Source: Siphonodentalium dalli (lineage: Eukaryota > Mollusca > Scaphopoda > Gadilida > Siphonodentaliidae). Taken from it: 64,000 nucleotides of DNA. Both the position numbers and the translations under genes were made by a program. Within the stretch, counting starts at the first letter, position 1. Every line of letters begins with the position of its first letter. Positions 22,957 through 61,495 of the stretch are shown one piece after another. The stretch lies in assembly GCA_032622095.1 (NCBI GenBank), contig CP136066.1, positions 170,448,664-170,512,663 on the forward strand, given 5' to 3'. Under the pieces are notes generated by a model. The model ran no database searches. It saw only the letters and a program-made list of their open reading frames with translations, and was not told the DNA's origin.

Positions 22957-22964
22957 AATTAATA

Positions 22965-23100
22965 TGTTTATAGTGCGGTGCCTTCTTTACTCTTATTTTG
23001 CACTCTTATATATTTATAGTGCTGTACCTTCTTGGCACTTATTTTGCACTGGTATATGTTTATAGTGCTGTGCCTTCTTGACACTTATTTTGCACTCGAG
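22965..23100 (-). repeat. Three ~46-bp tandem repeats at the LINE 5' end
   Basis: The unit TTTATAGTGC(T/G)GT(A/G)CCTTCTT followed by (A)CTTATTTTGCACT occurs three times just upstream (minus strand) of the ORF1 ATG. The position is that of a 5' UTR, where some LINEs carry promoter repeats. Confidence 0.7.
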
Positions 23101-38920: not shown

Positions 38921-38941
38921 TTATTTCCTTTGATATTTCAG

Positions 38942-39083
38942 AATGAGGATGCCACCACGACAGAAGGTTTATATGGATTACATTCACTCCAGTTCATTAC
39001 TACGGCAACTGTCTGATTTGTGGAGGAGTGAAAATAATTTGTGCGATGCTGTAGTCACGGTTGATAAAGTGATCGTCGCCAAG
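38942..39083 (+). CDS. BTB gene, first coding exon
   Basis: After a GATATTTCAG acceptor comes one base and then ATG (38943). It encodes 47 residues from MRMPPRQKVYMDYIHSSSLL to DKVIVAK, including the LCDAVVTVD strand of the BTB fold. The donor is AAG|GTACTG, phase 0. The acceptor just before the ATG means the 5' UTR continues in an upstream exon. Confidence 0.85.
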
Positions 39084-42000
39084 GTACTGTACCTGAAACC
39101 TGTCTTTTGATTTAGAAAACTTGTAGACACGATCTACATGTACATGTACATTTGAATGGTCCTAGTGGTACCTATTTGGTCGAGTTGTTTAAAGACATAT
39201 TAAATTATCACTGAGAGCTTTCCGATGAATGGCAACAAGCCATATTTCCTACCAAATCCTGAAAAATTACCCATAATTCTGCTGTGGTTAAGGAGTTGAT
39301 TATTTAGGGCAGTACTGTATATGGTAGGAACAAGCATTAAAATTATGAAAATCAGTGTATATTAAATCACTAAATATAGATTGTATATTCCTATTTCAAA
39401 CAAATAGAGCAAAACTACTTTGAACAACATCGTTATAACATCAAGGGGCAAGCCTACTTGTGTATATTTTGTTCACAAACCAAGCGAGATTTGTTGAATT
39501 GGGAATTTTGGGGTAAGAAATTTGGAAAAACCTAACTACATTGTATATCCCATTGCTCAAAAAAATCCCTGTCTGCAGACTGCAATTGAATTGATTTAGA
39601 TTGACTTCGAGATCGGCTGCAGCTTCGGTCACAGCCGATATCGGAAATAATTCTGCGCATGTCCATATTTGATGAATCTCGAACGACTATGACTGCGGCT
39701 GCAACCGCAACAAATGTCACTTTCGGTATCCAATACAAACAACATGAATACCCTGTAATTTAATCATCGAATTTGAGGGTTCTGGTATCATAAACTATAT
39801 AGGGATATCTGTTGATCAGACCCAATGCTGTATAATTTATACTTTAAGAGCATTAATTATATCTAAATAAACATTATTAGTTTATATAGGCCTAGGCGTG
39901 TCGTTTATATGGCCTACGCATATATAAAATAAATATTGACATTTGGAATTAACTATAAACTCCAACTTTCCAAAAATAGTTTCATAAAATTAGATATATA
40001 TATATAAAGTGTTTTCCTAAAACAACCATCGAACCCAAAGATAAAAATCTACACGTATCAACAACAGATTAAGTTTTTCATTCATTCAATCATTGTCCGC
40101 CTTTTTTATTTATTCAGTGGCCGCCATTTTGGATTTTATCGCTAGTACAGGAACTCGCAACCAGGATTTGGTGGAAACGTGACGTCACATATCCTGGTCA
40201 TGGTAACTTCGAGGTCCCAAATCCGGCTGTGACTAGCTGCGACCGATCTCGAAGTCACTCTTAACCTTTTACAGAGATACATGTAATTGAACTGCCGTAA
40301 CATATACCAATTATCCACCAGTCTACTCCCTGGTTTCTGATGTTGTACCAAATTTATAATAATACAGTAATGCTCTAAATAATTGACTCCTTAACCAGAG
40401 CAGAATTATGGGTAATTCTGCCATGGTTAAGGAGTCGATTATTTAGGGCATTACTGTGGACCAACAACTGACAGTATCCTATCCAGTCATTCTTCAACTA
40501 ATGCTGTCCTACTGGTAGTGATGTTCCGATAATGAAAAAGCTTATCGGACCGATTTCCGATAACTGGAGGCACAATCGGCCGATTTCCGATTCCGATTCC
40601 GATGTTTATATATATTGTGCGTTTGTTCCTATAATGGACTTGTATACACCCAATGCACTCCATATCCCGCATAGTTTCAAAGCCAAATACATCAAAGAAA
40701 TATATACACACTGTCGTGACAGTATTTCTGCCGACGTTGGTTGTGTGCTTCCTTTGATGTATACCGGTAGTTGTTTTGACAAAGAGATCAAAGGTGCCGA
40801 CTCAGAGTAACGTTATGACCATGTGTGGAACACTTGCATGCGGAGTAAAAGTCTTGATTGAATACTTGTAAGTTGCAACAATGCATGGAATGGCGATGAT
40901 TATTAACTAAATTTTGATTGATGGATAATAATTGCTGTCATATTTGTCTGAGATTTCCCAAGTTTCCATTGGTCACACCTTTTATCTTTTAACAACTCGG
41001 AAGCTTTTATAGTTCCGCCTGCTCAATTTTTTTTTTGCAAGTTCAACGTGGAGCTAAGCGTATTTCATAGCATACGTTGTACAGACGAAAAAGCTAATTA
41101 TGCCCATACTAACGTTGATCGTTATTGAAGACAGTTCTGATAACAACTGTATTAATTCATTCATTGTGTGCTTCAAGTTATTTACATAGCATGTGACGTC
41201 ACATGACACGTGCTCTAGAGGAAGCCTCACTGTAATCAGGTCAGCTTTTTAATTAAAGCTTTCTTTGAATCTATTTCGTGTCAACGCGATTGAACCAATA
41301 ACTTCATCATACACGGGATGTCGGGCATGTGTATTGCCATTCTTATAATATATCATCATATCAGACTGCTTTGATGATGCCAATGGCTTCTTTTTAGGCT
41401 GTTACAACTGCGTTTTTACATTCAATACTACAGTTGTATTGCGTATGTTTATTAAAGCGTGCACATTGCGCTTAGATACTAGAACGTTTTTATTTATTTT
41501 GACAATCGGTAAAAGCCGATGTTCAACTGCGAGGTACGATTAATTTCCGATGGGCTATTATCGGCCGATTGGCCGATTCCGATTCCGATTATCGGAACAT
41601 CACTACCTACTGGTACACTACTAGCAGATGTTTTCTGAACTACTGTCTACAGGTACATGTTAGAGGTGCCACGATTATTGATTTTGATAATCGATAATCA
41701 GTCACTGAATCGGTCAATAATAATCGACTATAATCGATTAATCGTACCTAATATTAATAACATCAGTGGAAGTATACCGTAATATGGCCTATTGCCTGGA
41801 TGCTTGTTAACTCAATAACTGCAATGTCGCTGGTCGTTTGAGACATTGGCTGATGTAATTTTTACGTTAATAAAGTGCATCATAAACCACTGTTAATAAC
41901 TAATGAGCACAATGTATTGAATACCAGCACAGTTCTCGGCGATGTTATGGTTATAATATTTTTGAGTTCATTAGAACGAACGTAGCGATTAATTTCAGTT

Positions 42001-45000
42001 TTAGGAATTGCCACATATACAAACAATACAAAAGTAGGAATGAACGATGGACCACCGGTGGTTCCTAAAGAAAGGAATAAAATGTTATGGAAACTATAAG
42101 TTTCATCAAACTTCCAGAGCGTGGTTAACAATCACAAAAGTGTGCCCCCACCTGCAAATTGCACGACTCAGAACAAGCTAAGTATTTGATAACAGTCTGT
42201 TTCATTCAGCATTCACCACACGAGATGCGATAGCCTTTACTAGTAACTTCTAAGTATACATTTGTACTTATACAAACAAAGTACACTCGCAATGCAATTG
42301 CGGAGAACATCACTGATTAAAAGCCATATATATATTGTTCCCTGGTTTTAGAGAGAATGTCAATCAACTTCCCATTGGTCCAACCAGATCCAAGGGCGAG
42401 TTCATTCAGTTCATTGAACACGGTGACAGTCGGCACATTTCAAAGACATATTGCCACCTTTCAAGTATATTAAAATATACAACGATGTCGCAATGTGTTC
42501 AAATCTGCAGTGCCGCCAATTTGTAGAATATACAACGATCCGACGAGAAACCATGTCGCATCATCAAATGAATTGCCGACTGTTTGCAACATATATCAGA
42601 AGTACTCAGGGGTGATAGGAAGACAGTCAGCCATGACTATATCACCCCTAGCAATATACATGTATAGTCTATTAATATTATATTTATTTGTAATTGTACT
42701 TTCCATGTATGTGTATTGTAAATAAAATTATCCTATCCTATCCTATCCTCATGTTATTGGAAAATCTTTGGTACGCGATCAAAGGACGTTAACACCTCGT
42801 ATGTAGATTGAACTGTGTAAAATAAACACGGTATTCAATAATACATGGCATCTTCTGACGTCCGATATAAACAATGCAGATTAATCGACGATGGAAATGG
42901 TAATCGATTATCGGCTTTATCAACGGTTCATCGATTATACGATTAATCGTGGCACCCCTAGTACATGTATCAGCTAAAAATATTGCAATGATCGATCATT
43001 ATGCCTATCAAACTAAATGTGCCCATAAAGTAGTCCCATCAAGGTTTTTCTTTAGGCAAAAGAAAAAATAAATGTGTGGTTTGGGTTTCCCTACCGACCC
43101 TATTTTAAACACCCTACATGTACTCTAAAGTTTTTTTCATGGTGTTCAAGAAAATCTATTGAATTTTTCTCAAAAAATTTCATTAAAAAAAACAACACAT
43201 TTCAGCATCTCAGAATAGGTTGATTTCTTAATAAAAGTAGTTTTATGATAATCTTGCTGAGTAAAATATGCATATGAAAAGTAATAAGATCATGTCAAAA
43301 TAAAAAAAATAATTAAATAAAATAAAATTTCAAGCCTACATGTACCTACCTACCGGTATACCCATTAAATGGTATTTACTGTATCTTTCCAGGCACACAA
43401 GTTACTGCTATATGCTATAAGTCCAAAGCTGAAGTCGGATTCTCAAACGGAACAACAGGCACCAATTCTCGACGTTTGCTTGCCTAGTGGAATAAATCAT
43501 TCAGCCGTCCACTCATTTTTATCATACGTATACGACGGATATCTCATTCTCGTGGAGAACCAACTACCAGATCTCATAAAAATAGCAAAGCAGCTCAAAC
43601 TCCGATGCCTCTACAAATGTTGTCAGGACTTCATGAAGACATTCAATGTGAACATTTCCAATGAGGTTGATGTGTTCCAACAACAGGATGAATTCGATCA
43701 TGTGAGGAACTCAAACATTAATGTCGAGGTTCCACCATGTGATCATGAAGACGAACTTCATTTTCGGAAAAAGAAACCAAAACTAGTCAGTGCTAGTCAA
43801 TCGTCTCCTATTGTGGTTGACAGTGATGTTTACGAATCGCCAACTCCGACAAGTAGATTCACACCAAGAGTTTCTAGTGCGTCTAAATCAGAACATTCTC
43901 AACAACACAACTCTCGCATTCCTCATCATGACAACTCTCGTGTTCCTCATCAAGCATCTGGAGATGGACAAATTATCGTACAGAATAACCTCAGTAATGA
44001 GAGAATCGTGCTTTCCAGTAATAACTATCAAAGTCCAACTGTTGACAGTCAGAGTAACACGTTGGTATCCAGACAGAGGAATGATCACGATCGAATGGAT
44101 ACAAGTGATCGTGCACGAGATCGAATGGAAACCAGTGATCGCGCACAAGAGTCAACGCAGTAAGTATGGTAGAAATTTGTGTCCGGATAATAGCACATAC
44201 GGGCTAGCATCACCAAATTCACCCTCTGGGAACCTCATTCTGCTTAGGCCTCAATTGCTTGGGGATCAGATTCACAAATATTGTGATATTTTGTATGTTG
44301 TTTAAATCCTTTTCAGTTTCAATTTAGTGGCATGTTCAAATGTTCAAGTGTAATTGGGGTGCTTTGGCTATTCCATAATGATACTTCGTGTGAGAAAAGC
44401 CAATAAGGTAACTACTAGTAATAATATATAGGGGAGCAAGTATTCTGAAATGTGGGAGCAAATAATTGCCCTTGCTGTGAGAAAATATTTGAGTTCTCGC
44501 ACCATGCGTAAAGTGTCGATGGACAGACAGACGGACGAATGACAAGTGGTCAATCCAGACATCGACACTATGTTTACCATATTATGGTATGGGTAAACAT
44601 AAAAAAAGTTTACTTGTGCACCAAATGATCACTACTCAACAAGATTTTAAGGGAATAGTTGAAATAATCGGTAATACGGTATACTGCAATGTGATTTTAG
44701 GATTACCGCTGTATTTTTATGCTTAAATACCACCCAGCACTAAATGGAATGGACTACTTATTTTGTATCATTACCTTGTTAATTCATATCTTAGTTGTTG
44801 ATTGATAATAATTGCTATTTTATTCTCCAGACCTGAAAGTAGCCAGCAAATATCAAATACTGTGATTCCCGATATCCAGAATATTAAACAGGAGGTCGAC
44901 GAATCAGTTCAAGCATTTCAATTCTCTACATTAAAAACGGACCCTGACGCAGACCAGTCATATCAAGGAGATGAGAATTTTCCCTCTATGTGGTTCCCGT

Positions 45001-48000
45001 CTGCCTCTGCTAGTAACACAGGAGAGGACGGTGGAGGGATTTCATCACTTGACAATAGCAATGTTTCCATGTATACTGACAACCAAGGTGCGAGCTTCAC
45101 AGGTGAACAGCCAAGAGCAGGCCAATCAGAGGTGAGTTTGAATCTTTGTTTTCTTGAGAAAGGTCACTGTTCATCAAACATGTTTAGCATCACTTCGGCT
45201 GAAGAAGGTATAACTCTTTAACATAGAATCGCGAGTGGATTCTTGGCCTTTATATTCCCCTGAATTCAAGTCGGTAAAGGATGCCCTCAAAATACAGAAA
45301 TCAGTCTTGTTAAAACTAGACCATGTTTCATTTCAATCAACTTACGGTCTAGGGGCTCTCATGAAATAAATTGTTTCAAACTGGAGGAATCGCGCCAACG
45401 AAATCACTTGCACATCGAAGATTTCATGCGTTGCTTGACCAATCAATAGCTTCCTGCAAAACCAATAATTATTCACACTTTGTCACGTATTTAACAAATC
45501 CCGCCCAATGTTGCTAAAAGTAAGTATTACAAAAAGCAGAAGTGATGGAGAAGCGATGTTGTACGAAAACAACATGGCTGATTTTTCCGAAATCTAAATT
45601 CTCGACGTTGCAATTAAGAATGTATTGCATAAAATAGGCATGGATTCACTGAAGAAACCAAAATAAGAGAATATTCTACGAAGCTTATTTACCTACAGAA
45701 AAGACATTTGAGCTATTCTGTCTATTTGTTACGGCCATTGTTATTAACATATGGGCATTGAAATTGTCACACGTCGATCAAAAAACAATAAAGAGTGCCT
45801 TATTTCAAAATATGAATATTAATGAGCTGTCGCTGGGGATTCCCCGTTCATCTCTGAAATCAATTTAAGTACCAGAGTCTCTAGGCTGAGTGTTTACTGT
45901 AACAAATCCTCGGTCTAGTTTTAATGAGACTGTATGGAAATGTACCAAAAATAAATATGAGAATACAATTTTTGTCATTACATAGCCATCAGACCTTCAG
46001 ATTATTAATCAGTATTCAGTACCATAATTTAATTTATAAACGTGAATATGCAATGACAAATATTGTATTCTCATGTTTATTGTGGGCCATTTGTGGCACA
46101 TTTCTAAATTTTTTGGACACATCATATTCCGTTTAGGGGATGTAAAGGCCTGATAGCCATGTTTATTTATTAATGAAAAACATTGAAATAATACCACATT
46201 TGAATCAAAGAACTAAATTCTCGGAACCGATCATGCTAGGAAATAGAATGCAATGATTTCATGTTTTTGGTCAAATCTCAAAATTTCCTCTCCTACCTGC
46301 TCCTACCAAGCCAAACCATGGTTCATCCCGATGTGCCAAATTTAGGTTGATATACATGATACCAAAATGTGTGTGAGGATACACAGCTTTCAATTAAAAC
46401 TGGGTACATGACTCTAAAAGTGTCTAATGTTGCATTCCCTAATTTACCATAATTTAAATAACTAGATTGTATAACCTAGTATAACATATACAGTATAACC
46501 TGTCTTGAGAGACCACCGTCAACAGCGACCACTTGCAATTTACGACTCAATTTCCTGTTCACCGACTGGTTTATTCTATATACATGTATTACCTTCATTG
46601 GGGAAACCACTTGTCAAACGCGACACCTAATTTTCGGTTCAAAACACAAATTCCACAGGTCTGTGCTGAGAGACCACCACCATTTATTAAAGAAGAAAGA
46701 AGCAGAAACTTTTGTTAAAGGCACGGATCGCCTTTGCGGTGGGTATTGCTGTTAAAATTGTCACATCCGTTTAAACTGCCATAAACAGAAAGAATATTAA
46801 AATATGGACAGAGTTTGTTCTTATTCCAATCATAAATAGTGCGTAAATAGTATGTTATTGTCAAGTTCGTACCCTTTGTAAACAAAAGCCAAAAACGTTC
46901 CGGAACCCGGCTTTTGTTTTCATATTATAACACAGCATATGAACTTGACAATAACATACTATTTATGCGATATTTATGATTGGTGTAAGAACAAAAAATG
47001 TCTATATTTTAATTTAATATTCTTTCTGTTTATGACAGTTTTAATGGGTGTGACTATTTTAACAGCATACGCACCATGATGGCTATCCGTGCCTTTAATC
47101 AAAGTAAAAATGCACCATAATTTCACCGGATATGTGCGAAAAACCGAAATTAAAATATCGGAATAAACTACAAAATGGACTCATCTTACAGTGTAAGCCC
47201 TAAAAGAAATGGAGACATTAAACCATTTATTAAAAATTTATGAAGCAGAAACTTTGGTTAAACTAAGTCAAAATGCCCCAGAATTATAATGGATACAACT
47301 GGATATGCACGAAACCAAAAGTACGAAAAGGGCTCGTCTTACGATTTTACGCGCCAAAGAAATGGACACATTGCATTCGCATGCACAGTAATTTGTGTTT
47401 TGAGACTTATTGTTATTTAACAGCTGTGTGATTATATTTTAATTCGCATCAGTCTGGAGGCCATTAACAATGGAAATAAAGTAAACTTGATTGCATATTT
47501 GTTTTGACAAACTACATGTTTCTCAGAACAATTAATTAATATATCGAGAGATGCTCAAACTGTGAAAAAGGGTTTAGTGGAAGCGGGTACTCAATTTATC
47601 TGTTGACATGGGTGGCCCAACTAATTAGCCATGTTGTCTTATAAATGCATTTGAAAGTTTTTTGGCTAGCAGTTTTTAAGTTCTTAAATCATGGATCGTT
47701 TTTCTTTATAGGCAGCACCACAGAAAAAACGTAAAATTCTCACTCTTCGGGAAAGAATCTCGGTGATTGATATGTCTGAGAAAGGTTTAAGTTCCAGAAA
47801 AATATCATGTGAACTTTCTGCTGGAAAAACGCAAATTCAGAATATAATTAAAAACAAAGATTCCATCCGAAAAGAATGGGAGATTGAACACAATTCGTGA
47901 CAATTGTATATTTGTGCTTTTTGAATACTGATCCATGTTCCCATCAACCATCTTAAAAGACAGAATTTGACCTTTTTGAGTATGAGTGTTCATTGCTTCA

Positions 48001-51000
48001 AATGTGCTTGCTTCAGTGATCGTGAACAAATTCTCATTTCTTATCGGAATGGCAGTATACAAAATAAATATCTATTTTGTACATTATTCCATCACGTTTA
48101 CCATCTTGTCTATTTGAATTCATTCAAGAGCAGATATCATCATGCCTTGAAATAATGTGTCTGACATTTGCAGAATGAGGTCCCCAGAAGGTGAGTTTAG
48201 TGATGTTATACTGCACGGTGTGCTAGCATCACCAAATTTACCCTCTGGGAACCTCATTCTGCTTTAATAGGCCTCAATTGCTATGGGAGACCTAGGATCC
48301 GATTGAAGTTCCCCAGTTGAAGTTGGTGATGTTCACCCATTAATAGCCTCGATTATGCATTTTATCTTCTGAAAAATAAGGGATATCTAGAAACTGAAGG
48401 AGAAGGGAAAAAGGAACCAACGACATTTGAGACTATAGATACTTCCCAGAAGATAAGGCCTAAGAGGAATGAGGTCTCCAGAAGGTGAATTTGGTGATGC
48501 TAGCCCACTGTACGGGGGTAGCATCACTGATTTCACCCTCTGGGGACCTCATTCTGCAAATATCATTCATACACGTACTAATTCAAGGCTTGGTCATCAG
48601 TCCTGCATATCCTTTCCCACTTTTGCTAAATATTATGGTCAGATTGACTTCTTTGGCATCACAAATGCTTATCACTATATCTGTAATTTGTACACTTAAC
48701 ATTGAGATAATTCCAGGTGTATGCAACGGTAACGACCTTTTATTATACCAGCCCTGTTATTTTGCGTCGGCTATCGGCTGAGCCGTGGCAAGAAAATTTT
48801 GTCGGCTAAAAAATAATTTCAAAACTTGCCAATGTTTTGTGCAAAATTGAAACAAATTGCTGCAGGAATTGTCTTACAGTAATGCCCAAAGTAATTGACC
48901 ACTTAACCACAGCAGAATTATGGGTAATTTTTCAGGATTTAGTCGGGGGGGAAATATGGCTTGTTGCCATTCATCGCCAAGAGCTTTCCGATGAATGGCA
49001 ACAAGCCATATTTCCGACTAAATCCTGAAAAATTACCCATAATTCGGCTGTGGTTAAGTGGTCAATTACTTTGGGCATTACTGTATGAGTTGTACTGTGA
49101 ATGTATGCAGACAGCAACAATTCATTGTTGAATGCACATGAGCTTGGAACTTCAATGGAGACCCCCTCCCCCTCAAATTAATTTCTACTGAAACCTGTGG
49201 TATACCCTCTAGGGGTGAAGAGGGTATATCACAGGGGGTGGGCAGAAACCAAGGTCTTCCATGATAATGGACCATGATCCATTTGTAGACTGAAGTTAAC
49301 CCTTCCATGACTGGATTTTCCTGATATTTTGCGAAAACCCTGTGCCAATGCATTCTCTTATATATGCGAGTCTCCCATAAGGAGTCGAGTCAAAGTTCTG
49401 CTAATTAACAGTGCTATTATTCTGTTGATATTGCTCTCATAAAAAAATAATATTTGTTGCCTTTGTGATGCTAAGTAATTGTTTGAAAATAAATCCAGTG
49501 ATCACATTGCATGCTAATGTTGTATTCCTACATGTTCATATTCTGTGTCTCAGCCCATCTATTGGAAAAAGACCGTCTGGTATATGAAACGTTATTCCTT
49601 TGTTCGTAATAATTTTATCATGATTTCAAAGGTGACATGCAAAGACATTCACAAATTTTCTATATCCTGAGCAAGCCTTGAAATAGGGTGTCTGTCATTT
49701 GCAGAATGAGGTCCCCAGAGGGTGAATTTAGTGATGCTACCCTGCATAGCGGGCTAGCATCACCAAATTCACCCTCTGAGAACCTCATTCTGCTGAGGTG
49801 TAAGCAGAATGAGGTCCCCAGAGGGTGAATTTGGTGATGCTAGCCTGCTTTGCGGGGTAATATCACTAAATTCACCCTCTGGGGACCTCATTCTGCAAAT
49901 GACAGACACCCTATTTCAAGGCTTGACCCTGAGGCTGTAAATAGTGAGATTGAACCTTTTAACCTATTCATGGGGGATTTTGACGGTCAGATTTTTACTA
50001 CCAACATAGTCAGTTTTATTGGGCATTGTGTTTTGGTCGAACATAAAAAAAAAAAAAAAGAAGATATTTAAAAGAGTACAGGTATCTTTATTTTTGTTTT
50101 GCCCATTTAATAACAGCATACCGGTATATTGAAGAACATTCATAAAATGTTCTTCTAAGCTTATTGGGGTATCAATCAGCGCACATGTTTCAATTTATGT
50201 TAACTGCGATTACATTTTTATTCACCTGGTACATGTAAGTGTAAAACCATCCGGGTTCACGTTGGCCCCGAAATTTTTTTTCGCCAATTTTTTGGCCATT
50301 TCAGAATTAGTTTTTGCCATTTTTCGGAAACTTGGGCCAAAATTAAAACTCAAAATATGGCACCATCGAGAAAATCAAAACTAAAACAAAAATATTAAGA
50401 AACATTCACAACAATAACTGATACATTTTGTGTTGGACAAAAGTGACAATGGAAATGTGCACAAATTGGATCCGCGAAAAATGAAATACATGTAGGTCCA
50501 GCCGGCAACGTATATCAACATAAAGGAGCACTGATTCATCTAGATTGTCATATTTTGAAACCATAGAGTAATCAAGTATTGTCACTTGATTAACAAGCCT
50601 TGAAATAGTGTGTCTGTCATTTGCAGAATGAGGTTCTCAGAGGGTGAATTTGGTGATGCTAGCCCGCTATGCGGGGTAGCATCACTAAATTCACCCTCTG
50701 GGGACCTCATTCTGCAAATGACAGACACACTATTTCAAGGCTTGTTGATTAAGAAAGTACACCATTCTTGCAGCTGATCAACATCATATTTTGATAACTA
50801 AGCATGTGTGACATTTGATCAATTATTATGCATACACAGCCAAGTAACTGCCGATCACATGCTAACGAATTAAGGGTTTCATGGAGATCTGATGATTATT
50901 TCAGATCGCTGACTATAGCCTTGAAACTTTTTGGCCAAATTTAATTTTCTTTGGCAAATTACCTCTAATTGGCCAATTTGGCCACCGACAACGTGAACAA

Positions 51001-54000
51001 TTCAGGTTTGGAAATAATTTGGTGTCAAAGCATGGTGTCAAAGAATATTTAATTATGGCAATAGATTTGCTGAATGAAAGTACATATGATCATATACATG
51101 TATAGTGTATATATATTATAGTTGGTATACAAGTACAGGTACTCAAAATTGTACTGGAATAAGCTTTTTGTTGCGTTCAATGAATTGTATTGGGTTTGGT
51201 ATCTCATTACAAGCATTGTATTTGCACTGTGGATTACTGTTTCTGTACAATTGTCTACCGTTTTGAACTGACTTGGCAACACTGGCCTAGTCAATTGTCT
51301 TTTGTTCAGATAAAACAACATTGACATTGGGTTGTTAAAACTTTCATACATACTAGTACATGTACAGGTGTGTATCCATAGGCCTTAGAAAACACAAATT
51401 CTTTGCATGCCACTTTTGAAGGTGCTGTATATGTTGTGGGTAGTCACGATTCACACATACATCTTTAGGCTTGTTCACAGTATCAAGTCTGCAAATAGCG
51501 TGTCTGTAATTTGCAGAATGAGGTCCCCTGAGGGTGAATTTAGTGATGCTATCCCACATGGCGGGCTAGCATCACCAAATTCAACCTCTGGGAACCTCAT
51601 TATGGTTAGGTCTCAAATGCTATGGGAGACCTAGGATCAGATTGAATTTCCCCAGTTGAAGTTGGTGATGTTCACGTATTAGTCACCTTGATTTTGCATT
51701 TTATATTGTGAAATTAGGGGATCTAGAAACTTCCCAGAAGGGAAAAAGTAACTAAAAACAATCTTAATTTAAGACTAAATACTTCCCAAAGATGTCAGAG
51801 GACTAAGCGGAATGAGGTCCCCAGAGGGTGAATTTGGTAATGCTAGCCCGCTGTGCGGGATACCATCACTAAATTCACCCTCTGAGTACCTCATTCTGTA
51901 AATGACAGACACGCTACGGTATTTGCAGGCTTGAGTAGTATTAGTAACTATTACTGAATTGGTCAAGTTTTCGTGGTACCAATGATCAAGGTACCCAGAA
52001 TCTGTTAAATATTGATTAGTTCCTGATATTCTTGGTACCCAAATTACCGTATTTGAATCCAATGTACCATACCATTTTCAACAGGACCATTCAAATTTGC
52101 CCCATGTTGGTGCCACCTAACAGTCTGGGTTGTTCGTCAGAGTTCAGTGTATTAAATTGCCACAACTGCAGCATACCGGTAACCCTAAGTGCTCTCTATA
52201 AATTGTACATGTAGCAGTTCTCGGCTTAGAAATCTTAATTTTATGTCGTCCTCGTCATGAGATGTGAGGCAATGCTATAACTATTTCTCTACACTGTACA
52301 TGAGGCAAAATTAAAAAAAAATTGTGGTTCCCGTTTCTATACCTGCCCTTTTTGATACACCCTACCCTACAGTTTATTTTAATGGTTTTCCAGGGTTCTT
52401 TAAGAAATTTTTCTGAATTGTTTTATTTTAAAAAAACAAAAATGAATTTTCAATGGCTCAGAATGGGTTATTTGTCAAAGAAATTTATTTATTAGTTTTT
52501 CAACCCAAAATATTGTTAACAAAATCTTGCAGAAGAAATTAAAAAACAGTTTAATATACTCTATACACCTACATGTACATGTAGTAGGTATAAAAAAAAA
52601 CCAATTCTATATCCCCTCTAAATCAGCTGAAATTGTGTCCGTTTAAGTTGGTCGGGTCCGCTTAACCAAGTTATTAAAAAAGGCCTTACTGTAACATTGT
52701 GATAACGTCAGTTAATAGAGAGCACTTATTTAGGGTTATGCTGTATTTTCAGTCGAAAGTCTACACGCCTCTAGCCAAGATGAGGTCCGAACCTGCGGTT
52801 AGAAGTTTGCCATCAGAGCAGCCACACGGTCCACACGATAGAAGCGGCATGTGTAGAAATAATGTTCGGAATCTATTGCATCATGGGAACCAAGGGAACA
52901 ATTATCAAATCTACCCTCTGGATTCATCATATGCACCATCCAATGCTAATACGTTGCATCTACAGCACTCTGGTGACAATACACACAAACGTTTTCACAG
53001 AGATAATAGGTCTCATAGAGAGCGTTTCAGTGGCGATGATACACATGAACAATTTTACCAAGATAATTGTGACATACCTAATAGGGAGCGCTTGAGTGGT
53101 GATGATTCACATCATCAAGGTGATATACCTAATAGAGAGCGTTTCCATGGTGATGATACACATCTTGAGATTTACATAGATGAAGTGGCCCATGACGATG
53201 AATATTTTGGTGATAATTCCTCAAGCAGTATCATGTGTAGCGGTGTTTGTAAATTCAGTTCCGATCAGATGCTCGAACAGAAACCGCTGAGGGGAAAACC
53301 CTCCCCGGCTCAAAAATTCTTCCACACTCTGATTAGGGATGCAGCTAGGCAGACAAACATCTGGAAAAATGCTCCAATTCTCTCAGAAATATCGGATAAT
53401 GGGAGAGAAAACTTTTTGGAGATTGTGTTTCAGCGTGCACCTCAACTTGAACCTGAGAGATATCGGGTTTGGCAACGATTTGGTCACCAGTTAGCTAACA
53501 GACGCAAATATTTAAGGGACAAAACTTCTGGGAAAAGATGAAATGAGTCTGGATGACTTTTAAACAGACACAATGTACTGGTAGGCACATTTTGAATGTC
53601 TGAAACTAGTTAAAATTAGCATTGTACATTTACATCATCAGCGAAACCATATTTGAAATTATTTAACATCATATAATATTATAGTGTCTTTCTCCAGCCC
53701 TTAAAATTAGCTGTGGCAAAAGGCGATGTCAAAAAAGCCATAGATGCCACTATAGAATTTCATGCATATCAAAAGCAATGCCATAGAAGAAAAATTTCGA
53801 CACAAACTCTACCAACTTTATGATATTGAAAAAAGATTTATAGCAACTAAAACTTCCAGCAGTTCTTCAGTGGGTATTATACATTGTAACACGTTCCATC
53901 CCCCCTTTAATGCCATTTGTACACAAAATTGCATACCCCATCTACATGTACATGTACATTACCAGGAGTAAAGCTGCTGTTCATGGATGGTTTTGGCCAC

Positions 54001-57000
54001 TAAATGTATTTTGTTACTCAGGTTCGCTGAAGCTGGTATTCTTATACCCAGGTTGGTTTCATTTCACCCCGATTCAATTCGGCTGTCAACCCCACTCGCA
54101 GGGCCCTAATTCAAGCAGTGTCCATTATACTGTATGTTGCTTGGCATCTTCTATATGCCCAGAGATGCATGGAAAACATTGTTTTTGTTTTCTTTATGTA
54201 ATCCATTTCCTACCAATCAAGAGACTTGGTCTTCATGACCGAACAATCATACATGTACCCCGCTGGACAAAACAAGTGTCCATTGGCACCGCGGTGTACT
54301 TGCCATTCGGCCGCGGTGTCAGAGTTTGTAACTACAGTTGAGCACAGTCTGGAGTAAACTACATACCCACATATATCAGTATCATTATGAATCTGAGTGT
54401 ATGTTTACATAGACTGAGTTGAGCACTGCAGCCAAAAGACAAGTACCCTGCGGCCGAACGGCAAGTACACTTCGGCCGAACGGCAAGTACACCGCGGCCG
54501 AACGGCATGTACACTGTGGTTAGATTTCTGGTTTGTATCGTCTTTTTTCGGCAACTACACCATGGCCGAACGGCAAGTACACCGCAGCCCAACTGTAGTT
54601 AGCCGGTGGAGCCACGATGTAGTTGCATTTCGGCCACTGTGGCATCGCTAACCACATTGCGGTTAAGTGGACACTTGTTTTGTCCAGCAGGGTACCTTGT
54701 ATGTGTTTTGAGAACAGGATTGCAATGTACACTACATATAGCTACCGGTAATTACCTTTATACATGTATGGATAGGATTCTTGGGTCTGGCTTCATGTCT
54801 CATAATTTCTCCTCTGAACTCGAAACTGGGAGGCGATTCTGTGTCATTATTAATGTTTCTGTGATCTGTACATGACATTATTCCCCCGCCCTGGATATGA
54901 TAACCGGATCACTAGTGAGGTACCCAAGTTATGATTTAGATGTTCAGTAAATGGTTAAAGACTCATGTTTTAAGTGCTATATAAAACTATCCATTATTAT
55001 GATAACTAGTAACCAATATTGTGCACCAAATATTTGTGTCTTAACATCGTTACTGTAATATACAGCCCTAAAAATTAGGAAAAATGTCCCACTGCAAATT
55101 TAATGCTGTGGCATGTTCGATTCCAAATGTTTCCATGGCATTGCTTATTGCCGTGTCCAATTTTGAGGACTACGTATATGCCTGTATATGCCAGTGTATC
55201 TTCCCTGGGTACATGTACATGTACCAGTATCTTCCATGGTTTCTACATGTTCATCTATATTAATCAAAACATAAGATATATTATCAAAATTATCTTTATC
55301 AGATACAACCAATCGACTACCAACCCAATTATTTTATTCATAAGCTTTCCAAAGTACATTCTTGTTGCAAGCAGTTGAAACCAGAGTTTTATTCATGAAA
55401 TTTCATCTAGTTTAATCTTAAATGACCGCTCTCTTGTGAGAAGTCAATGAATTATCTTCTCACGATGTGATAAAATCAGATACATGTACAGTGGGTACTC
55501 AAATTTCTGCTGTCCATAACATTTCGATGCATACTCTTTTGAACAGTTACATGTAGCTTTCCAAAAGTACCGATGTGACAAACAGTATGACTGAGTTACT
55601 CTGTTGAGGCTTTTATTCACCATAAAGCATGTACATTAATGCTCGAAGTAATCAACTAAATTCTGAAAAGTTACCCATAATTCTGCTGTGGTTAAGAAGT
55701 CGATTACTTAGAAAATTACTGTACCGGTACATTTATTGCACTCCTACATGTATTGCTGTCTTTCGGTTGATAACATTGCAAAAACCATGCAAAACAAATA
55801 CATGTATTTGATAGTGAAGATTACTGATTGCTGGTGTATAATAAACACAGAACCACACAGACTTGTGAAGGAGGTGAACTTTATCACACTCATTTGTTAT
55901 GCAGATGGCTCTCGTTTTAATTCCCACTTTCACATGCTTGTCAGGTTCTGTCTATTGATCACATGTGTTACAAAAATTGTCAGCAATATTTGTGCCTTAT
56001 AATAAATAAAAAACACTGTTTTATTCACAATTAATGATAATGACACTTTACAATGTGTCTTTGGAAACCCCATACTGGTGCAAGCATACTGCATTTATAT
56101 TATCGTATACATGTACCCATACCTGTACAGCAAAAGTTGTTTCTTCCAGGAATAATACAGATCTTGGCTGATATCAGGCATTTGTTTTTTGTTTGTACAT
56201 CTGCAAATACTTAGTACTAGAACATGTATGCTGGTTTATGCCGAAGATCTGTTCCATTTTTCTCCGACGGCAGAGTTTACACTCAGACTCTTTGGCCAAT
56301 TTTTTTTTCGATAGTTGTAATTGACATACATGTATAATCCTACATATCAACACAGTAGCTACAGTACATGTATATCAAAAGTGTGATATCTTATGGTCAC
56401 AATGATCTAGTTTTGATGTTAAAATACATGTATGTATAGATTAATTATGATGTGTAACTTTTGTGCAAGACTGGATATAGTGTTTCTGACATTTGCAGAA
56501 TGATTTCCCAGAGGGTGAGTTTAGTGACGCTATCCCGCACATCGGGCTGGCATCAGTTCACCAAATTAACTCTCTGGGAACTTCATTCTGCTGATGGCTT
56601 AACCCTTTACCCAACAAACCGGCCAAAACCGGCCAAAGAAAGCTTCAACAGCCTAAAATATCTTCGGTCTGTCTCAACAGAACCATACAAATATGGATAT
56701 CATTGGAACCGGCTCATTGACCACATTGTGATGGTTATAGTTATGCCCTGTGCCAATGCATTCTCTTATATATGCGAGTCGACCATAGGTCGCCTCGCAT
56801 ATATAAGAGAATGCATTGGCCTAAAAAAATCTTTTTTTGACACTTTTTACCATTTTTTCTTACATTCTTTAACAATTTTATAATTTTTAATGTGTTAAGC
56901 CAATGCATTCTCTTATATATGCGAGGCGACCTATGGTCGACTCGCATATATAAGAGAACGCATTGGCACAGGGCCCTTCTGTTGGGTAAAGGGTTAACTG

Positions 57001-60000: not shown

Positions 60001-61495
60001 TGTAAGCAGAATGAGGTCCCCAGAGGGTGATGCTAGCCCACTATGCGGGGTAGCATCACTAAATTCACCCTCTGGGGACCTCATTCTGCAAATGACAGAC
60101 ACCCTATTTCAAGGCTTGTTCACATTACCAATTGATGGGACAAATCACTGTCACAGTTTTCTTTTTTTTTGCATAACAAGGTATTCCAGCAGGCAAAATT
60201 ACTCCCTGTTCTTAGTTATAATGTTTGTATAAACTTTTATATTTTTGCACATTTACCCACTGTGATTGCCTTGTGTCCCTTTAATAGTAAGCTCCCATTA
60301 GTATATCACATCATCTTGCCAAGCCTGGAAAAAGTGTGTCTGACATTTGCAGAATGAGGTTTAAATTTAATTTACCCTTGGGGACCCCATTCTTCTCGGG
60401 CCTCAACTTCTTGGATGTATCGATCTTTCATCTCAAATTAACATTGTTTTTAGTTACTTTTTCCCCTTCTGTTCAGTTTCTATATCACCTAATTTGTAGA
60501 AGATAAAATGCATAATAAAGTTGACTACATGTAATTCCTGGAACTTCAATCTGATCACAAGTATCCCATAGCAGTTGAGGCATAAGCAGAATGAGGTTCC
60601 CAGAGGGTGAGTTTGGTGATGATAGCCCACCATGTAAGATATGGTTACTAAACTCACCCTCTCAGGACCTCATTCTGCAACGTCAGATGCACTATATTCT
60701 GGCTTGTATCAGGCCTGGTTTATTCCATGTTTATGTCTTTTTTTTATCATACTTTTCATTTTACAGAGAGTGTCCAAGACGCCTGCAATCGATTCTACGT
60801 CTGTGGTAAACAAAGATGTAGAACAATTGGAGCAGAGCGTCGTTCACAAGTCAGTGCCGGATACGTCTGCAGTGGCTTTAAAAGAAAACTCAAAGAAAAC
60901 CTGGCTTTGTTCATTGTGTGCCACAACTTTTTCATCAAAATTCAACATGAATCGACACGAAAAAGAGAGGCACAACCTTAACCCGGCCAAGTACAAGTGT
61001 TCTGATTGCCACATCGAATGCACCGACTTAGCTGCGTTAAATTCTCATAAGAAAAAACATAACGAAAAGAACCTGTGTCCATCGTGTGGTAAATGCTTTA
61101 AGAGAAGGAGTGAATTAACACGGCATTTAAAACAGCATGACCCTAGTTCTTTGATTACATGTCCATATGAGGGTTGCGGTAAAACTTTCCATGTTAAAGA
61201 AAGCTATGATGATCACCTCAATACCCACACCAAGATGAAACCATTCTCATGTTCTAATTGTGGCAAATGCTATGGTTCGCGTAGAGTTCTGCATAACCAC
61301 GAACATATCTGTAATGGAGAACATGGAGGCAAGATTCTTTGTGTGTTATGTGGTAAAGGCTTCGCCAATTCATCTGGAGTTTATCACCATAAGGTAGCTG
61401 TGCATGATGGGAAACTCTACAAGTGCGGCTGTAGAATGACTTTTAGATATCCGTCGTCACTTATTAAGCACAAGAAACTCAAGGGTCATAAATGA
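38942..61495 (+). CDS. BTB/POZ gene with three candidate alternative DNA-binding 3' exons
   Basis: The shared exons 38942-39083, 43393-44159 and 44831-45131 encode 403 residues with a BTB domain (about 33-132). The third ends exactly between codons (GAG|GTGAGT). Three downstream ORFs each begin right after an AG acceptor in phase 0 and end in a stop: 47712-47900 (CENP-B/psq HTH, protein of 465 aa), 52753-53541 (repeats plus helical module, 665 aa) and 60767-61495 (seven zinc fingers, 645 aa). The BTB domain mediates dimerisation; the tails would choose DNA targets in the nucleus. Insect lola, broad and tramtrack use this layout. That the exons are alternatives of one gene is inferred; separate genes or partial pseudo-exons remain possible. 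Confidence 0.75.
39211..39317. repeat. Half copy of the P1 palindrome
   Basis: Only the right arm: GAGAGCTTTCCGATGAATGG to GGGCAGTACTG. Confidence 0.75.
40365..40456. mobile_element. Short P1 MITE with deleted centre
   Basis: CAGTAATGCTCTAAATAATT and GGGCATTACTG ends survive; about 120 bp of the central palindrome are missing. Confidence 0.75.
40516..41605. mobile_element. hAT-like nonautonomous element (TAGTGATGTTCCGATAAT), complete
   Basis: Tips TAGTGATGTTCCGATAAT and complement. A perfect 8-bp duplication CCTACTGG lies at 40508-40515 and 41606-41613. CGATTTCCGATTCCGAT-type subterminal repeats. The related copy at 31005 lacks its right end. Confidence 0.88.
41661..42960. mobile_element. 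hAT-like nonautonomous element (TAG(A/G)GGTGCCACGATTA), complete
   Basis: Tips TAGAGGTGCCACGATTATTG and GATTAATCGTGGCACCCCTA. A perfect 8-bp duplication GTACATGT lies at 41653-41660 and 42961-42968. It contains a LINE-tail insertion (42609-42749) absent from the copy at 25866-26674. Confidence 0.88.
42609..42749 (+). mobile_element. 5'-truncated LINE 3' end with (ATCCT)n tail
   Basis: Present here but missing from the related hAT copy near 26470. It ends TAAATAAAATTATCC followed by (TATCC)n. CTCA at both junctions may be a short target duplication. Confidence 0.7.
43393..44159 (+). CDS. BTB gene, second coding exon (rest of the BTB domain, disordered linker)
   Basis: Acceptor CTTTCCAG, 767 nt, donor CGCA|GTAAGT (phase 2). 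AHKLLLYAISPKL, FLSYVYDGYL and LPDLIKIAKQLKL-CLYKCC-DF complete the BTB domain. The remainder is polar, rich in Ser, Asp, His and Arg, with RMDTSDRA/RMETSDRA repeats at the end. The frame reaches TAA at the donor, so retention of the next intron would give a BTB-only protein. Confidence 0.9.
44197..44290. repeat. Fragment of the P3 hairpin family
   Basis: GGGCTAGCATCACCAAATTC, then ACCCTCTGGGAACCTCATTC. It starts about 37 bp after the donor of the second coding exon. Confidence 0.7.
44831..45131 (+). CDS. BTB gene, third shared exon (acidic linker)
   Basis: Acceptor TTCTCCAG, 301 nt, donor GAG|GTGAGT (phase 0). It encodes an acidic Ser/Asp-rich linker: PESSQQISNTV, then IKQEVDE (a sumoylation-like site), ending AGQSE. 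Reading on past the donor adds 29 residues to a stop at 45221. Confidence 0.8.
45303..45934. mobile_element. TIR element (CAGTCT..TTAAAACTAGACC)
   Basis: CAGTCTTGTTAAAACTAGAC on the left is mirrored at about 45913-45934. The target duplication is not clear. Confidence 0.55.
45945..46095. repeat. Palindromic MITE-like repeat
   Basis: AATAAATATGAGAATACAAT with TTTTGTCATT at the left is mirrored by AATGACAAATATTGTATTCT with CATGTTTATT at the right. Confidence 0.6.
46719..47094. mobile_element. Palindromic TTAA-target MITE (AGGCACGGAT tips)
   Basis: AGGCACGGATCGCC and GGCTATCCGTGCCT tips are flanked by TTAA (46715-46718, 47095-47098). The arms meet around AACGTTCCGGAACCCGG. Confidence 0.82.
47712..47900 (+). 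CDS. Candidate terminal exon A: CENP-B/psq-type helix-turn-helix
   Basis: Acceptor TTTATAG, phase 0, 62 codons and TGA. It reads KKRKILTLRERISVIDMSEK, then GLSSRKISCEL, AGKTQIQNIIKNKDSI and KEWE. The pattern K-LTL-E---VI---E-G-S-R-IA---GK-Q-Q-I--NK matches the N-terminal DNA-binding domain of CENP-B/Tigger transposases and pipsqueak proteins. An AATAAA lies at 48063-48068, about 165 bp downstream. It could have been recruited from a pogo/Tigger transposon. Confidence 0.8.
   Translation, partial: AAPQKKRKILTLRERISVIDMSEKGLSSRKISCELSAGKTQIQNIIKNKDSIRKEWEIEHNS
48143..48565. mobile_element. P3 hAT-type MITE, long form
   Basis: Two GAGGTC(C/T)CCAGA(A/G)GGTGA hairpins around the GGGAGACCTAGGATC spacer. 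It starts about 240 bp after the stop of terminal exon A, just past its poly(A) signal. Confidence 0.7.
48877..49083. mobile_element. Palindromic TA-target MITE (P1), complete
   Basis: CAGTAATGCCCAAAGTAATT and its mirror GGGCATTACTG, flanked by TA. Confidence 0.82.
49297..49390. repeat. Broken TTAA-type MITE with half a hairpin
   Basis: GTTAACCCTTCCATGACTGG followed by CCCTGTGCCAATGCATTCTC and TATATATGCGAG; the right half is gone. Confidence 0.55.
49672..49925. mobile_element. P3 hAT-type MITE, double-hairpin form
   Basis: CAAGCCTTGAAATAGGGTGT and complement at the ends. Flanks ATCCTGAG and ACCCTGAG match at 7 of 8 bases. Two hairpins are in tandem. Confidence 0.8.
50251..51003. mobile_element. 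Diverged hAT-type element, relative of 32916-33806
   Basis: GGTTCACGTTGG and CCGACAACGTGAAC ends, with repeated TTTGGCCAA words near both ends. It is split by a P3 MITE. Confidence 0.55.
50594..50744. mobile_element. P3 hAT-type MITE, single-hairpin form
   Basis: A complete 151-bp palindrome with CAAGCCTTGAAATAGTGTGT arms. Perfect 8-bp duplication TTGATTAA (50586-50593, 50745-50752). Confidence 0.92.
51482..51935. mobile_element. P3 hAT-type MITE, long form
   Basis: CAAGTCTGCAAATAGCGTGT and its mirror, with two hairpins around the GGGAGACCTAGGATCAGATT spacer. Confidence 0.75.
51936..52752. other. Intron before terminal exon B
   Basis: AT-rich. A segment at about 52370-52510 (ACACCCTACCCTACAG, TTTTTCTGAATTG, CAATGGCTCAGAATGGGTTA) is distantly similar to 43105-43240, upstream of the second coding exon. 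Confidence 0.4.
52753..53541 (+). CDS. Candidate terminal exon B: repeats plus unassigned helical module
   Basis: Acceptor TATTTTCAG, phase 0, 262 codons and TGA. The middle holds three or four degenerate repeats of RERFSGDDTHEQFYQDN with NRER starts. The last ~80 residues (SPAQKFFHTLIRDAARQTN, LEIVFQRAPQLEPERYRVWQ, RFGHQLANRRKYLRDK) look helical with a basic end, as in small DNA-binding domains. Size and basic tail recall BEN domains, but the match is not good enough to claim. No AATAAA is obvious in the next 200 bp. Confidence 0.65.
   Translation, partial: SKVYTPLAKMRSEPAVRSLPSEQPHGPHDRSGMCRNNVRNLLHHGNQGNNYQIYPLDSSYAPSNANTLHLQHSGDNTHKRFHRDNRSHRERFSGDDTHEQFYQDNCDIPNRERLSGDDSHHQGDIPNRERFHGDDTHLEIYIDEVAHDDEYFGDNSSSSIMCSGVCKFSSDQMLEQKPLRGKPSPAQKFFHTLIRDAARQTNIWKNAPILSEISDNGRENFLEIVFQRAPQLEPERYRVWQRFGHQLANRRKYLRDKTSGKR
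53542..54257. other. Sequence after terminal exon B
   Basis: Likely 3' UTR then intron. A CTTTCTCCAG site at 53696 opens a 41-codon frame (PLKLAVAKGDVKKAIDATIE) to a stop, but the AGCCCTTAAAATTAG start resembles hAT tips (4524, 55063), so I do not call it an exon. Confidence 0.35.
54258..54692. mobile_element. TIR element with 22-bp CCGAACGGCAAGTACAC repeats
   Basis: CCCCGCTGGACAAAACAAGT and complement at the ends with TA on both sides. The centre has three tandem GGCCGAACGGCAAGTACAC units (about 54450-54514), a fourth at about 54556, and an inverted one at 54291-54318. Confidence 0.75.
54693..56460. other. Intron with repeat fragments
   Basis: Holds a CAGCCCTAAAAATTAGG hAT relic (55063-55140), a P1 half copy (55631-55724) and many ACATGTA motifs. 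No exon recognised. Confidence 0.45.
56470..57312. mobile_element. P3 MITE, long form, split by a TTAA MITE
   Basis: P3 hairpins at about 56495-56592 and 57183-57280. The spacer (CATGGAGACCTAGGATCAG) continues right after the nested element at 56603-56993. Confidence 0.7.
56603..56993. mobile_element. TTAA-target MITE (P2), copy 3, nested in P3
   Basis: CCCTTTACCCAACAAACCGG and GGGCCCTTCTGTTGGG-type ends flanked by TTAA (56599-56602, 56994-56997). Two hairpins (about 56752-56820 and 56899-56967). Confidence 0.87.
57362..57574. mobile_element. Palindromic TA-target MITE (P1), complete
   Basis: CAGTAATGCCCTAAATAATC and GGGCATTACTG, with central GAGAGCTTTCC mirrored as GGAAAGCTCTC. Confidence 0.85.
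57617..57906. mobile_element. TTAA-target element (CCCT(T)TATATACTAAA tips)
   Basis: CCCTTTATATACTAAA and TTTAGTATAGAGAGGG are flanked by TTAA (57613-57616, 57907-57910). The interior shares GTGCAGAAG...GAGGAAAATGTT with 7268 and 8700. Confidence 0.7.
57911..58937. other. Intron with a P1 half copy
   Basis: Right-arm P1 fragment at 58694-58797; otherwise AT-rich DNA without recognised exons. Confidence 0.45.
58938..58964 (+). CDS. Possible 27-nt cassette microexon of the BTB gene
   Basis: TTTTTCGCAG acceptor, nine codons (IRKLDNNDE), and donor GAG|GTGAGT identical to that of the third shared exon. Length is a multiple of 3 and phase is 0, so it could precede the zinc-finger exon. A match this short can arise by chance. 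Confidence 0.25.
59217..59323. repeat. Half copy of the P1 palindrome
   Basis: GAGAGCTTTCCGATGAATGG to GAGCATTACTG; right arm only. Confidence 0.75.
59575..59708. repeat. Variant hairpin pair of the TATATATGCGAG type
   Basis: CCCATAGGGAGCCTCGCATA, then TATAAGAGAATGCATTGGCC, followed by a diverged inverted copy ending GCCCTTGCACAGGG. The loop reads CATAGGGAG, not CCTATGGTCG. Confidence 0.55.
59874..60118. mobile_element. P3 hAT-type MITE, double-hairpin form
   Basis: CAAGCCTTGAAATAGGGTGT and complement. Perfect 8-bp duplication TTCACATT (59866-59873, 60119-60126). Confidence 0.92.
60320..60706. mobile_element. P3 MITE, degenerate, 60 bp before the zinc-finger exon
   Basis: CAAGCCTGGAAAAAGTGTGT and TGCACTATATTCTGGCTTG ends. 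The spacer is in inverted orientation relative to other long copies, and one hairpin is partly lost. Confidence 0.65.
60767..61495 (+). CDS. Candidate terminal exon C: seven C2H2-type zinc fingers
   Basis: Acceptor TTTTACAG, phase 0, 242 codons and TGA. Fingers span exon residues 48-69, 78-98, 104-124, 132-154, 162-182, 192-213 and 220-241. Finger 4 has C-x4-C, finger 5 ends in Cys (C2HC), and finger 7 has C-x-C and H-x5-H. Canonical TGEKP linkers are mostly absent, although TKMKPF joins fingers 4 and 5. The order BTB, acidic linker, then zinc fingers is the usual BTB-ZF plan. Confidence 0.88.
   Translation, partial: RVSKTPAIDSTSVVNKDVEQLEQSVVHKSVPDTSAVALKENSKKTWLCSLCATTFSSKFNMNRHEKERHNLNPAKYKCSDCHIECTDLAALNSHKKKHNEKNLCPSCGKCFKRRSELTRHLKQHDPSSLITCPYEGCGKTFHVKESYDDHLNTHTKMKPFSCSNCGKCYGSRRVLHNHEHICNGEHGGKILCVLCGKGFANSSGVYHHKVAVHDGKLYKCGCRMTFRYPSSLIKHKKLKGHK

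Follow-up and report, generated by a model that had tools for sequence, protein, structure and literature searches.

The shared BTB head

The window analyzed here is a stretch of 64,000 nucleotides from the scaphopod mollusc Siphonodentalium dalli (C6:170448664-170512663; C6 is contig CP136066.1), and the genome searched along with it comprises 2.23 Gb in nine contigs. Three exons on the plus strand of the window specify the N-terminal part, or head, of a BTB protein (plain coordinates are those of the window):

Exon A, 38943..39083, plus strand: ATG and the first part of the BTB domain (MRMPPRQKVYMDYIHSSSLLRQLSDLW...VAK)
Exon B, 43393..44159, plus strand: remainder of the BTB domain (AHKLLLYAISPKLK...) and an acidic/Ser-rich linker; entered in phase 0, left in phase 2
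Exon C, 44831..45131, plus strand: linker with IKQE; phase-0 donor GAG|GTGAGT, the proposed choice point

The original prediction of three common exons ending at GAG|GTGAGT in phase 0 was verified: the exons follow one another with phases 0 (K|AHK), 2 and 0 and join into an open frame of 403 amino acids, which matches the BTB family of Pfam (PF00651, E 8e-11) and no second Pfam family. An acceptor AG ends at 38941, just 5' of the ATG, and hence one or more 5'UTR exons probably lie upstream of exon A. The IKQE of exon C is a SUMO-like motif. On a simple home-made consensus scale, used here for all splice sites in place of a trained predictor, the donor of exon C scores 6.8, a value reached by 0.11% of the 3,749 GT sites in the window, and the donors of exons A and B are weak (0.4 and 1.2). 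Among solved structures in the PDB, the closest BTB domain by sequence is that of a ZBTB17-BCL6 chimera (E 4e-8), with the kelch-type gigaxonin, ZBTB9 and BACH1 also ranking high and the alignments starting at residue 8-15. With an N-terminal extension (by eye), neither kelch nor BACK domains, and DNA-binding domains as partners, the BTB domain of the head appears to be of the ZBTB subtype.

Three candidate tails within the window

Downstream of the head lie three open reading frames that could each serve as a terminal exon, or tail:

Tail 1, 47712..47900, plus strand: 62-aa terminal exon with a CENP-B_N domain (pogo-type helix-turn-helix)
Tail 2, 52753..53541, plus strand: 262-aa terminal exon with a repetitive N-terminal part and a conserved C-terminal domain of about 90 aa
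Tail 3, 60767..61495, plus strand: 242-aa terminal exon with seven C2H2 motifs

As had been claimed, each of the three opens behind a phase-0 AG and closes with a stop codon; the acceptor scores are 4.05, 2.1 and 3.0 for tails 1, 2 and 3 (reached by 0.25%, 3.0% and 1.2% of 3,217 AGs, respectively). That they encode different modules also holds: tail 1 matches CENP-B_N (PF04218) with 36.7 bits against a cut-off of 21.2 (E 3e-9), tail 2 gives no Pfam match up to E 1, and tail 3 contains seven C2H2 fingers by pattern and six stretches of them by Pfam. When the 3' region was simulated 200 times with a first-order Markov model, the longest phase-0 frame behind an acceptor of at least 2.1 had a median length of 56.5 aa, a 95th percentile of 100 and a maximum of 155. 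Tails 2 and 3 are longer than this maximum and are thus beyond chance; the length of tail 1 falls within the chance range, and this tail therefore rests on its domain match and not on its length. Tail 3 needs an upstream exon, since its first methionine sits inside the first finger.

The absence of internal donors, which had been stated without qualification, stands insofar as no GT within any of these tails scores above 3.2; nevertheless, tails 2 and 3 hold one site each at 3.2, which exceeds the donors of exons A and B. An AATAAA or ATTAAA occurs once, not at all and twice within 1.5 kb past the stops of tails 1, 2 and 3; these counts lend no support to poly(A) signals behind the tails, being below the window average of 3.7 per 1.5 kb by the same crude count. 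Tails 1 and 2 could be relics instead of used exons.

The window also contains a non-LTR retrotransposon on the minus strand (17208-22986) with an 867-aa frame for endonuclease and reverse transcriptase and a 789-aa frame with a PHD finger. A short element starting with CAGAATGAGGTCCCCAGAGGGTGAATT occurs, for instance, at 48171, 49702 and 50624 and is often paired with an inverted copy; its first 11 bases match 14 times on the plus and 13 times on the minus strand of the window. A second hairpin, GCCAATGCATTCTC..., has eight matches per strand. The open frame at 12509-12862 on the plus strand includes a stretch that is EF-hand-like by eye and gives no Pfam match. As a marker of the taxon, the molluscan haemocyanin domain yielded no match, and neither did any control.

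Continuation of the array beyond the window

The locus had been delimited as 38942..61495. The three tails do lie within this span, but the array continues past it, with at least eight tail ORFs up to C6:170558119. Of these, a two-finger C2H2 exon starts in phase 0 at C6:170515098 (acceptor 3.0), 23 kb past the head, and a three-finger C2H2 exon, likewise in phase 0, at C6:170523257 (acceptor 4.05); Pfam confirms the C2H2 fingers in both. When the two-finger tail was used as a query against the 2.23 Gb, at least seven more ORFs were recovered 3' of the same head, all on the plus strand and none broken by stops:

C6:170523356, plus strand: outer tail, the same as the three-finger exon
C6:170528063, plus strand: outer tail
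C6:170536285, plus strand: outer tail
C6:170537338, plus strand: outer tail
C6:170542566, plus strand: outer tail
C6:170544890, plus strand: outer tail
C6:170557898, plus strand: outer tail

Three of these seven take ranks 2, 3 and 4, and the other four also fall within the top 26 rows, so that the three best non-self matches all lie at the query's own locus. The three-finger tail (C6:170523257) as a query recovered, by eye and among the matches listed, only finger genes elsewhere and no head-adjacent tail but itself. The locus thus presents at least 11 candidate tails over about 70 kb, at least eight of them short C2H2 tails in the 48 kb that follow the window's own. Acceptors were read for five of the at least 11 tails, and all five are in phase 0; the first three of these had been chosen for their phase by the earlier reader, and the last two had not.

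Paralogous heads and their tail arrays

At the level of the second exon, the BTB head gives 30 rows genome-wide, itself included, that is, about 29 further heads, the weakest of which (e.g., C5:95331740, with 28% identity) may be ordinary BTB genes. The gene structure is widely shared among them. An acceptor before AHK/AHR is common to 20 of the 21 paralogous loci read (for L062, from the printed letters), and a phase-2 donor of exon 2 is present in 19 of the 21, with L044 and L062 lacking a clear donor there. Ten exon-1 donors, this gene's included, sit at the identical place, AK|GT (L048 and L066 being one locus). The heads L053, L059 and L061 have a predicted exon resembling exon C, entered in phase 2 and left in phase 0; within the stretches read, several heads gave no such equivalent, C6:207 and C6:167 among them, and the tails at C6:207 need one. 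The head L040 (C4:236451650-236452021) is without the first intron, exons A and B being precisely fused, and keeps a phase-2 donor-like end of exon 2; it represents either intron loss or a partial retrocopy.

Zinc-finger sequences recur next to these heads in the same arrangement. Among the matches listed, 35 distinct zinc-finger places are no more than 200 kb away from a head, and all 35 lie downstream of it on the head's strand, the farthest up to 180 kb away. Without the present locus the count is 26 of 26 places at 11 heads, again among the matches listed, or 11 of 11 when counted by head; tandem tails are not independent of one another in the count of 35. When the heads were rotated along the chromosomes, 0.35 places were obtained on average and 19 at most in 5,000 trials. 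The 35 places derive from four queries on chromosomes C4, C6, C7 and C8, which cover 27 of the 30 heads, and one of the queries is represented by the listed part of its 209 matches. By eye, none of the finger matches on C3 and C5 is near the three heads there. Tails are undercounted by this procedure, since each genome search scored the best 150 of approximately 9,000-15,000 finger candidates.

The last finger of many paralogous tails (L069-L080) has C-x-C instead of C-x2-C spacing, as in YKCACGKVFKYGAGLQKHKK and HTCGCGTVFKYRNGLRRH, and so does the last finger of tail 3 (YKCGCRMTFRYPSSLIKHKK). This spacing is a possible hallmark of the family.

Phase agreement across loci

If single heads are joined to alternative tails, the tail acceptors of any one locus should agree in phase. 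A common phase is found at five of the six loci with at least two readable tail acceptors, namely the present one (five of five tails read), C6:207, C7:60, C7:190+ and C7:190-; at C6:167 the two tails read differ, with acceptor phases 0 and 1. The best head donor at C7:60 is in phase 1 (5.6), as are the best acceptors of both its tail-2-like exons (3.0 and 4.05). The three duplicated tails at C6:207 have their best acceptors in phase 0, with dN/dS values of 0.60, 0.37 and 0.33. At C7:190+ two tails are in phase 1, preceded by a 50-nt candidate exon that ends in phase 1, and at C7:190- four of six tails were read, two being in phase 1 and two without a good acceptor.

Elsewhere, the best donor (5.2) and the best acceptor (1.2) at C7:118 are both in phase 1. 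The tail at C6:131 has its best acceptor in phase 2 (2.25) and a weak phase-0 site (1.05), and exon 2 there ends in phase 2. The single tail read at C6:105 has a phase-1 acceptor against an exon 2 ending in phase 2, and would hence require a linking exon. Across loci, the evidence from phase is good but not uniform.

Tail 1 as a probable exonized transposon domain

Tail 1 is embedded in transposon-derived DNA, an origin that the original prediction had not recognized:

Remnant of a pogo/Tigger-type DNA transposon, 47401..47983, plus strand: holds tail 1; homology to 14 aligned genomic copies

The homology starts at or before 47401, which is the edge of the stretch compared, and the name pogo/Tigger is one that we presume from the CENP-B_N domain. 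Jointly, the 14 copies cover both flanks of the exon, with L027 lacking the upstream part and four aligning over only about 12 bases downstream. Tail 1 has 63 matches in the genome, itself included, and by eye none of them is near another head.

The acceptor of tail 1 is TTTCTTTATAG|GCA, as against TTTCTAAATATGCA in the transposon copies. Specifically, the 13 copies, out of 14, that are readable at the site carry AAATATGCA and the window TTATAG|GCA; three of the six bases differ, two by a change to T and one by a change from T to G. In the copies, this stretch lies within the beginning of the transposase frame (‘MDRFSKYA’ in L025). Fixed differences between the window and the copies amount to 34/250 upstream of the exon, 30/182 within it and 10/78 downstream. 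Those within the exon are 17 synonymous to 13 non-synonymous, as opposed to 16 to 48 (four stops included) for the private changes of the copies, a contrast with p=0.005 by the Fisher test and p=0.07 when counted by codon position. This synonymous excess suggests selection for the protein, though part of it could date from the active life of the transposon, before insertion. Judged by these alignments, tail 1 is a transposon-derived pogo/Tigger CENP-B_N domain, probably exonized, with its predicted acceptor within what had been transposase coding sequence, and we lean toward counting it among the tails used at the locus.

An undescribed domain in tail 2

The last ~90 residues of tail 2 match ORFs of 553-561 aa at ten places and of 439 aa at four, with 52% and 46-47% identity, respectively. 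In all, the domain has 34 matches, and those outside the two sets, tail 2 itself apart, are more decayed or distant. At the DNA level, identity within each set is 98.5-99.97% across the 3.3 kb that were compared, and both types start behind acceptor-like sequence; they thus resemble spliced exons of a repeat that multiplied recently. At 27-30% identity, the domain is also found 3' of two other heads, in three tails altogether. In 15 of 15 pairs it is the third codon position that has changed most, in line with long selection. No relative was found in the PDB at E 10 or in Pfam, and a single-sequence AlphaFold model is all helical, at low confidence (pLDDT 51). Tail 2 carries an undescribed domain.

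By eye, a BEN domain had seemed conceivable; neither tail 2 nor six aligned members match PF10523 at E 10, and the genome's six PF10523 matches lie elsewhere. A simple transposon insertion was likewise rejected for tail 2, as window positions 52000-55000 are without a DNA-level match to the 14 repeat copies; for the same reason its link to the repeats is at the protein level only. The repeat ORFs with this domain, which we take by eye to have a possible SAM-like start, lie in dispersed, near-identical repeats (L010-L019 and L020-L023, with L093-L096). Two copies of one such repeat are 99.2-100% identical over about 11 kb, and the 8 kb flanking one copy contain no open frame above 148 aa. Taken with tail 1, one or two of the at least 11 DNA-binding ends of the locus appear to be related to mobile DNA.

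A proposed mode of expression and its alternatives

We propose that the locus represents a single transcription-factor gene, in which one head on the promoter side is followed by many 3' terminal exons that exclude one another. The transcript would start 5' of exon A and run through the tail array, the phase-0 donor of exon C being joined in each transcript to one of at least 11 terminal exons, and the message would take its stop and its poly(A) site from the chosen tail. Exons A-C would supply a ZBTB-type BTB dimerization domain and a disordered acidic linker. If, as in the ZBTB family, the BTB domain dimerizes, isoforms with different fingers could pair with one another; since the proposed isoforms share their dimerization surface and bind different DNA, homodimers and heterodimers would multiply the repertoire, in the way of insect lola. 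The family of about 30 heads, many of them with tail arrays, would have grown by the copying of both heads and tails, and at least once a transposon DNA-binding domain would have turned into a tail.

The head-plus-tails organization predicts more tails on the same strand, acceptors in phase and a like layout in the paralogs. The same-strand position of 35 of 35 places among the matches listed, along with the phase agreement at five of six loci, supports the earlier proposal of one head with alternative tails in the manner of lola and broad. We consider it very likely, from the genomic sequence, that alternative tails are used at this locus.

One alternative would be that only a single 3' end is real, as in an ordinary BTB-zinc finger gene, and that the remaining tails are small separate zinc-finger genes or dead exons produced by tandem duplication. 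It would account for the two of the four C7:190- tails read that are without a good acceptor and for the mixed phases at C6:167, and tandem duplication of tails is indeed evident at C6:207. However, the duplicated tails at C6:207 have dN/dS below 1, the eight tails past the window match and none is broken by stops, tail 3 has no start codon ahead of its fingers, and the head's strand and side are kept in 35 of 35 places among the matches listed, which together make such a gene unlikely. The tails could alternatively be trans-spliced to the head from separately transcribed units, as in lola and mod(mdg4), for both of which trans-spliced isoforms are reported in the sections of PMC11426971 drawn on here. 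The long arrays, in which places can be as distant as 180 kb from their head, would agree with this. Nonetheless, zinc-finger places near heads on the opposite strand number 0 of 35 among the matches listed, so that ordinary cis-splicing would suffice; we regard trans-splicing as very improbable here.

A stronger contender, although still less probable than its opposite, is that the zinc-finger tails alone are genuine, tail 1 and possibly tail 2 being transposon remnants with fortuitous acceptors in a long intron. The transposon homology does extend to either side of tail 1 with roughly equal divergence, its 62-aa frame is within chance length, and none of its 63 matches is, by eye, near another head. 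On the other hand, precisely at the acceptor, three of six bases in the window are unlike those of the copies, and the fixed differences of 17 to 13 against 16 to 48 in the copies (synonymous to non-synonymous, p=0.005) speak against a relic, even if part of the synonymous excess may predate the insertion. For tail 2, phase-matched exons of the same kind behind two other heads point in the same direction. We accordingly retain alternative tails on a shared head as the preferred interpretation of the locus.

Relation to lola and other known systems

The Drosophila genes lola, broad and tramtrack share with the present locus a single BTB head and many alternative 3' exons, mostly of the C2H2 type. 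They differ in that the head described here is without the FxLRWN motif, the layout recurs at many heads, and the tails include pogo-type and novel domains. In the sections of PMC11426971 drawn on here, FxLRWN is the N-terminal motif of TTK-type BTB domains, 17 of the 20 lola isoforms have different C2H2 fingers, and non-TTK BTB-C2H2 proteins of Drosophila have one isoform each. The survey of TTK-type BTB domains in those sections reports them from arthropods only, with none in Mollusca or Annelida. We found no FxLRWN in 12 head N-termini representing 11 distinct heads, none of them from C7, C8 or C3, and no match to the motif in L039-L068 or in the six frames of the window. As the motif is missing from the 11 distinct head N-termini read, the head of this locus falls outside the TTK type. 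The tentative suggestion of independent evolution in the original prediction thereby gains support, given 0 of 11 distinct heads with FxLRWN and a TTK type confined to arthropods in the consulted part of PMC11426971.

At mod(mdg4), too, one BTB head is combined with a choice of many C-terminal domains. Its isoforms are mostly FLYWCH proteins according to the same sections of PMC11426971; in contrast, Pfam finds no FLYWCH domain in the five tails of the present locus that were scanned, and 0 of 35 places near heads are on the opposite strand among the matches listed. Vertebrate ZBTB proteins (ZBTB17/BCL6, ZBTB9 and BACH1) are among the closest solved BTB domains without being close sequence matches (best E 4e-8). 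These vertebrate proteins have one DNA-binding region per gene.

Host-transposase fusion genes such as KRABINER and SETMAR, for which the model of Cosby et al. 2021 is cited in the part of PMC12062965 used here, resemble tail 1 in that a transposon DNA-binding domain became an exon of a host regulatory gene. Unlike in those fusions, the captured domain is here one option among alternative tails, and the acceptor of tail 1 sits in what the copies have as transposase coding sequence. Tail 1 fits the transposase-capture model as discussed in that part of PMC12062965.

Searches of an open-licence library, by titles and the beginnings of abstracts, yielded no description of a lola-like locus outside the arthropods, which does not prove that none exists. 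The present locus is probably an independent, lola-like system built on a non-TTK BTB domain. The fuller proposition, which we hold to be somewhat more likely than not, is that outside arthropods a family of about 30 non-TTK BTB heads became lola-like independently, with up to 11 or more same-strand tails for a single head, local duplication of tails, and transposon-derived tails recruited via acceptors within coding sequence. The making of many transcription factors from one head via alternative 3' exons is best known in insects, where it is tied to the TTK-type BTB, and our results suggest that a comparable means of deriving many regulators from one gene evolved outside insects as well. If true, an independent origin on another BTB type, at many loci in one genome, would mean that the layout evolves readily. 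It would also offer a stepwise path from the DNA-binding domains of transposons to host regulators, with the old isoforms kept.
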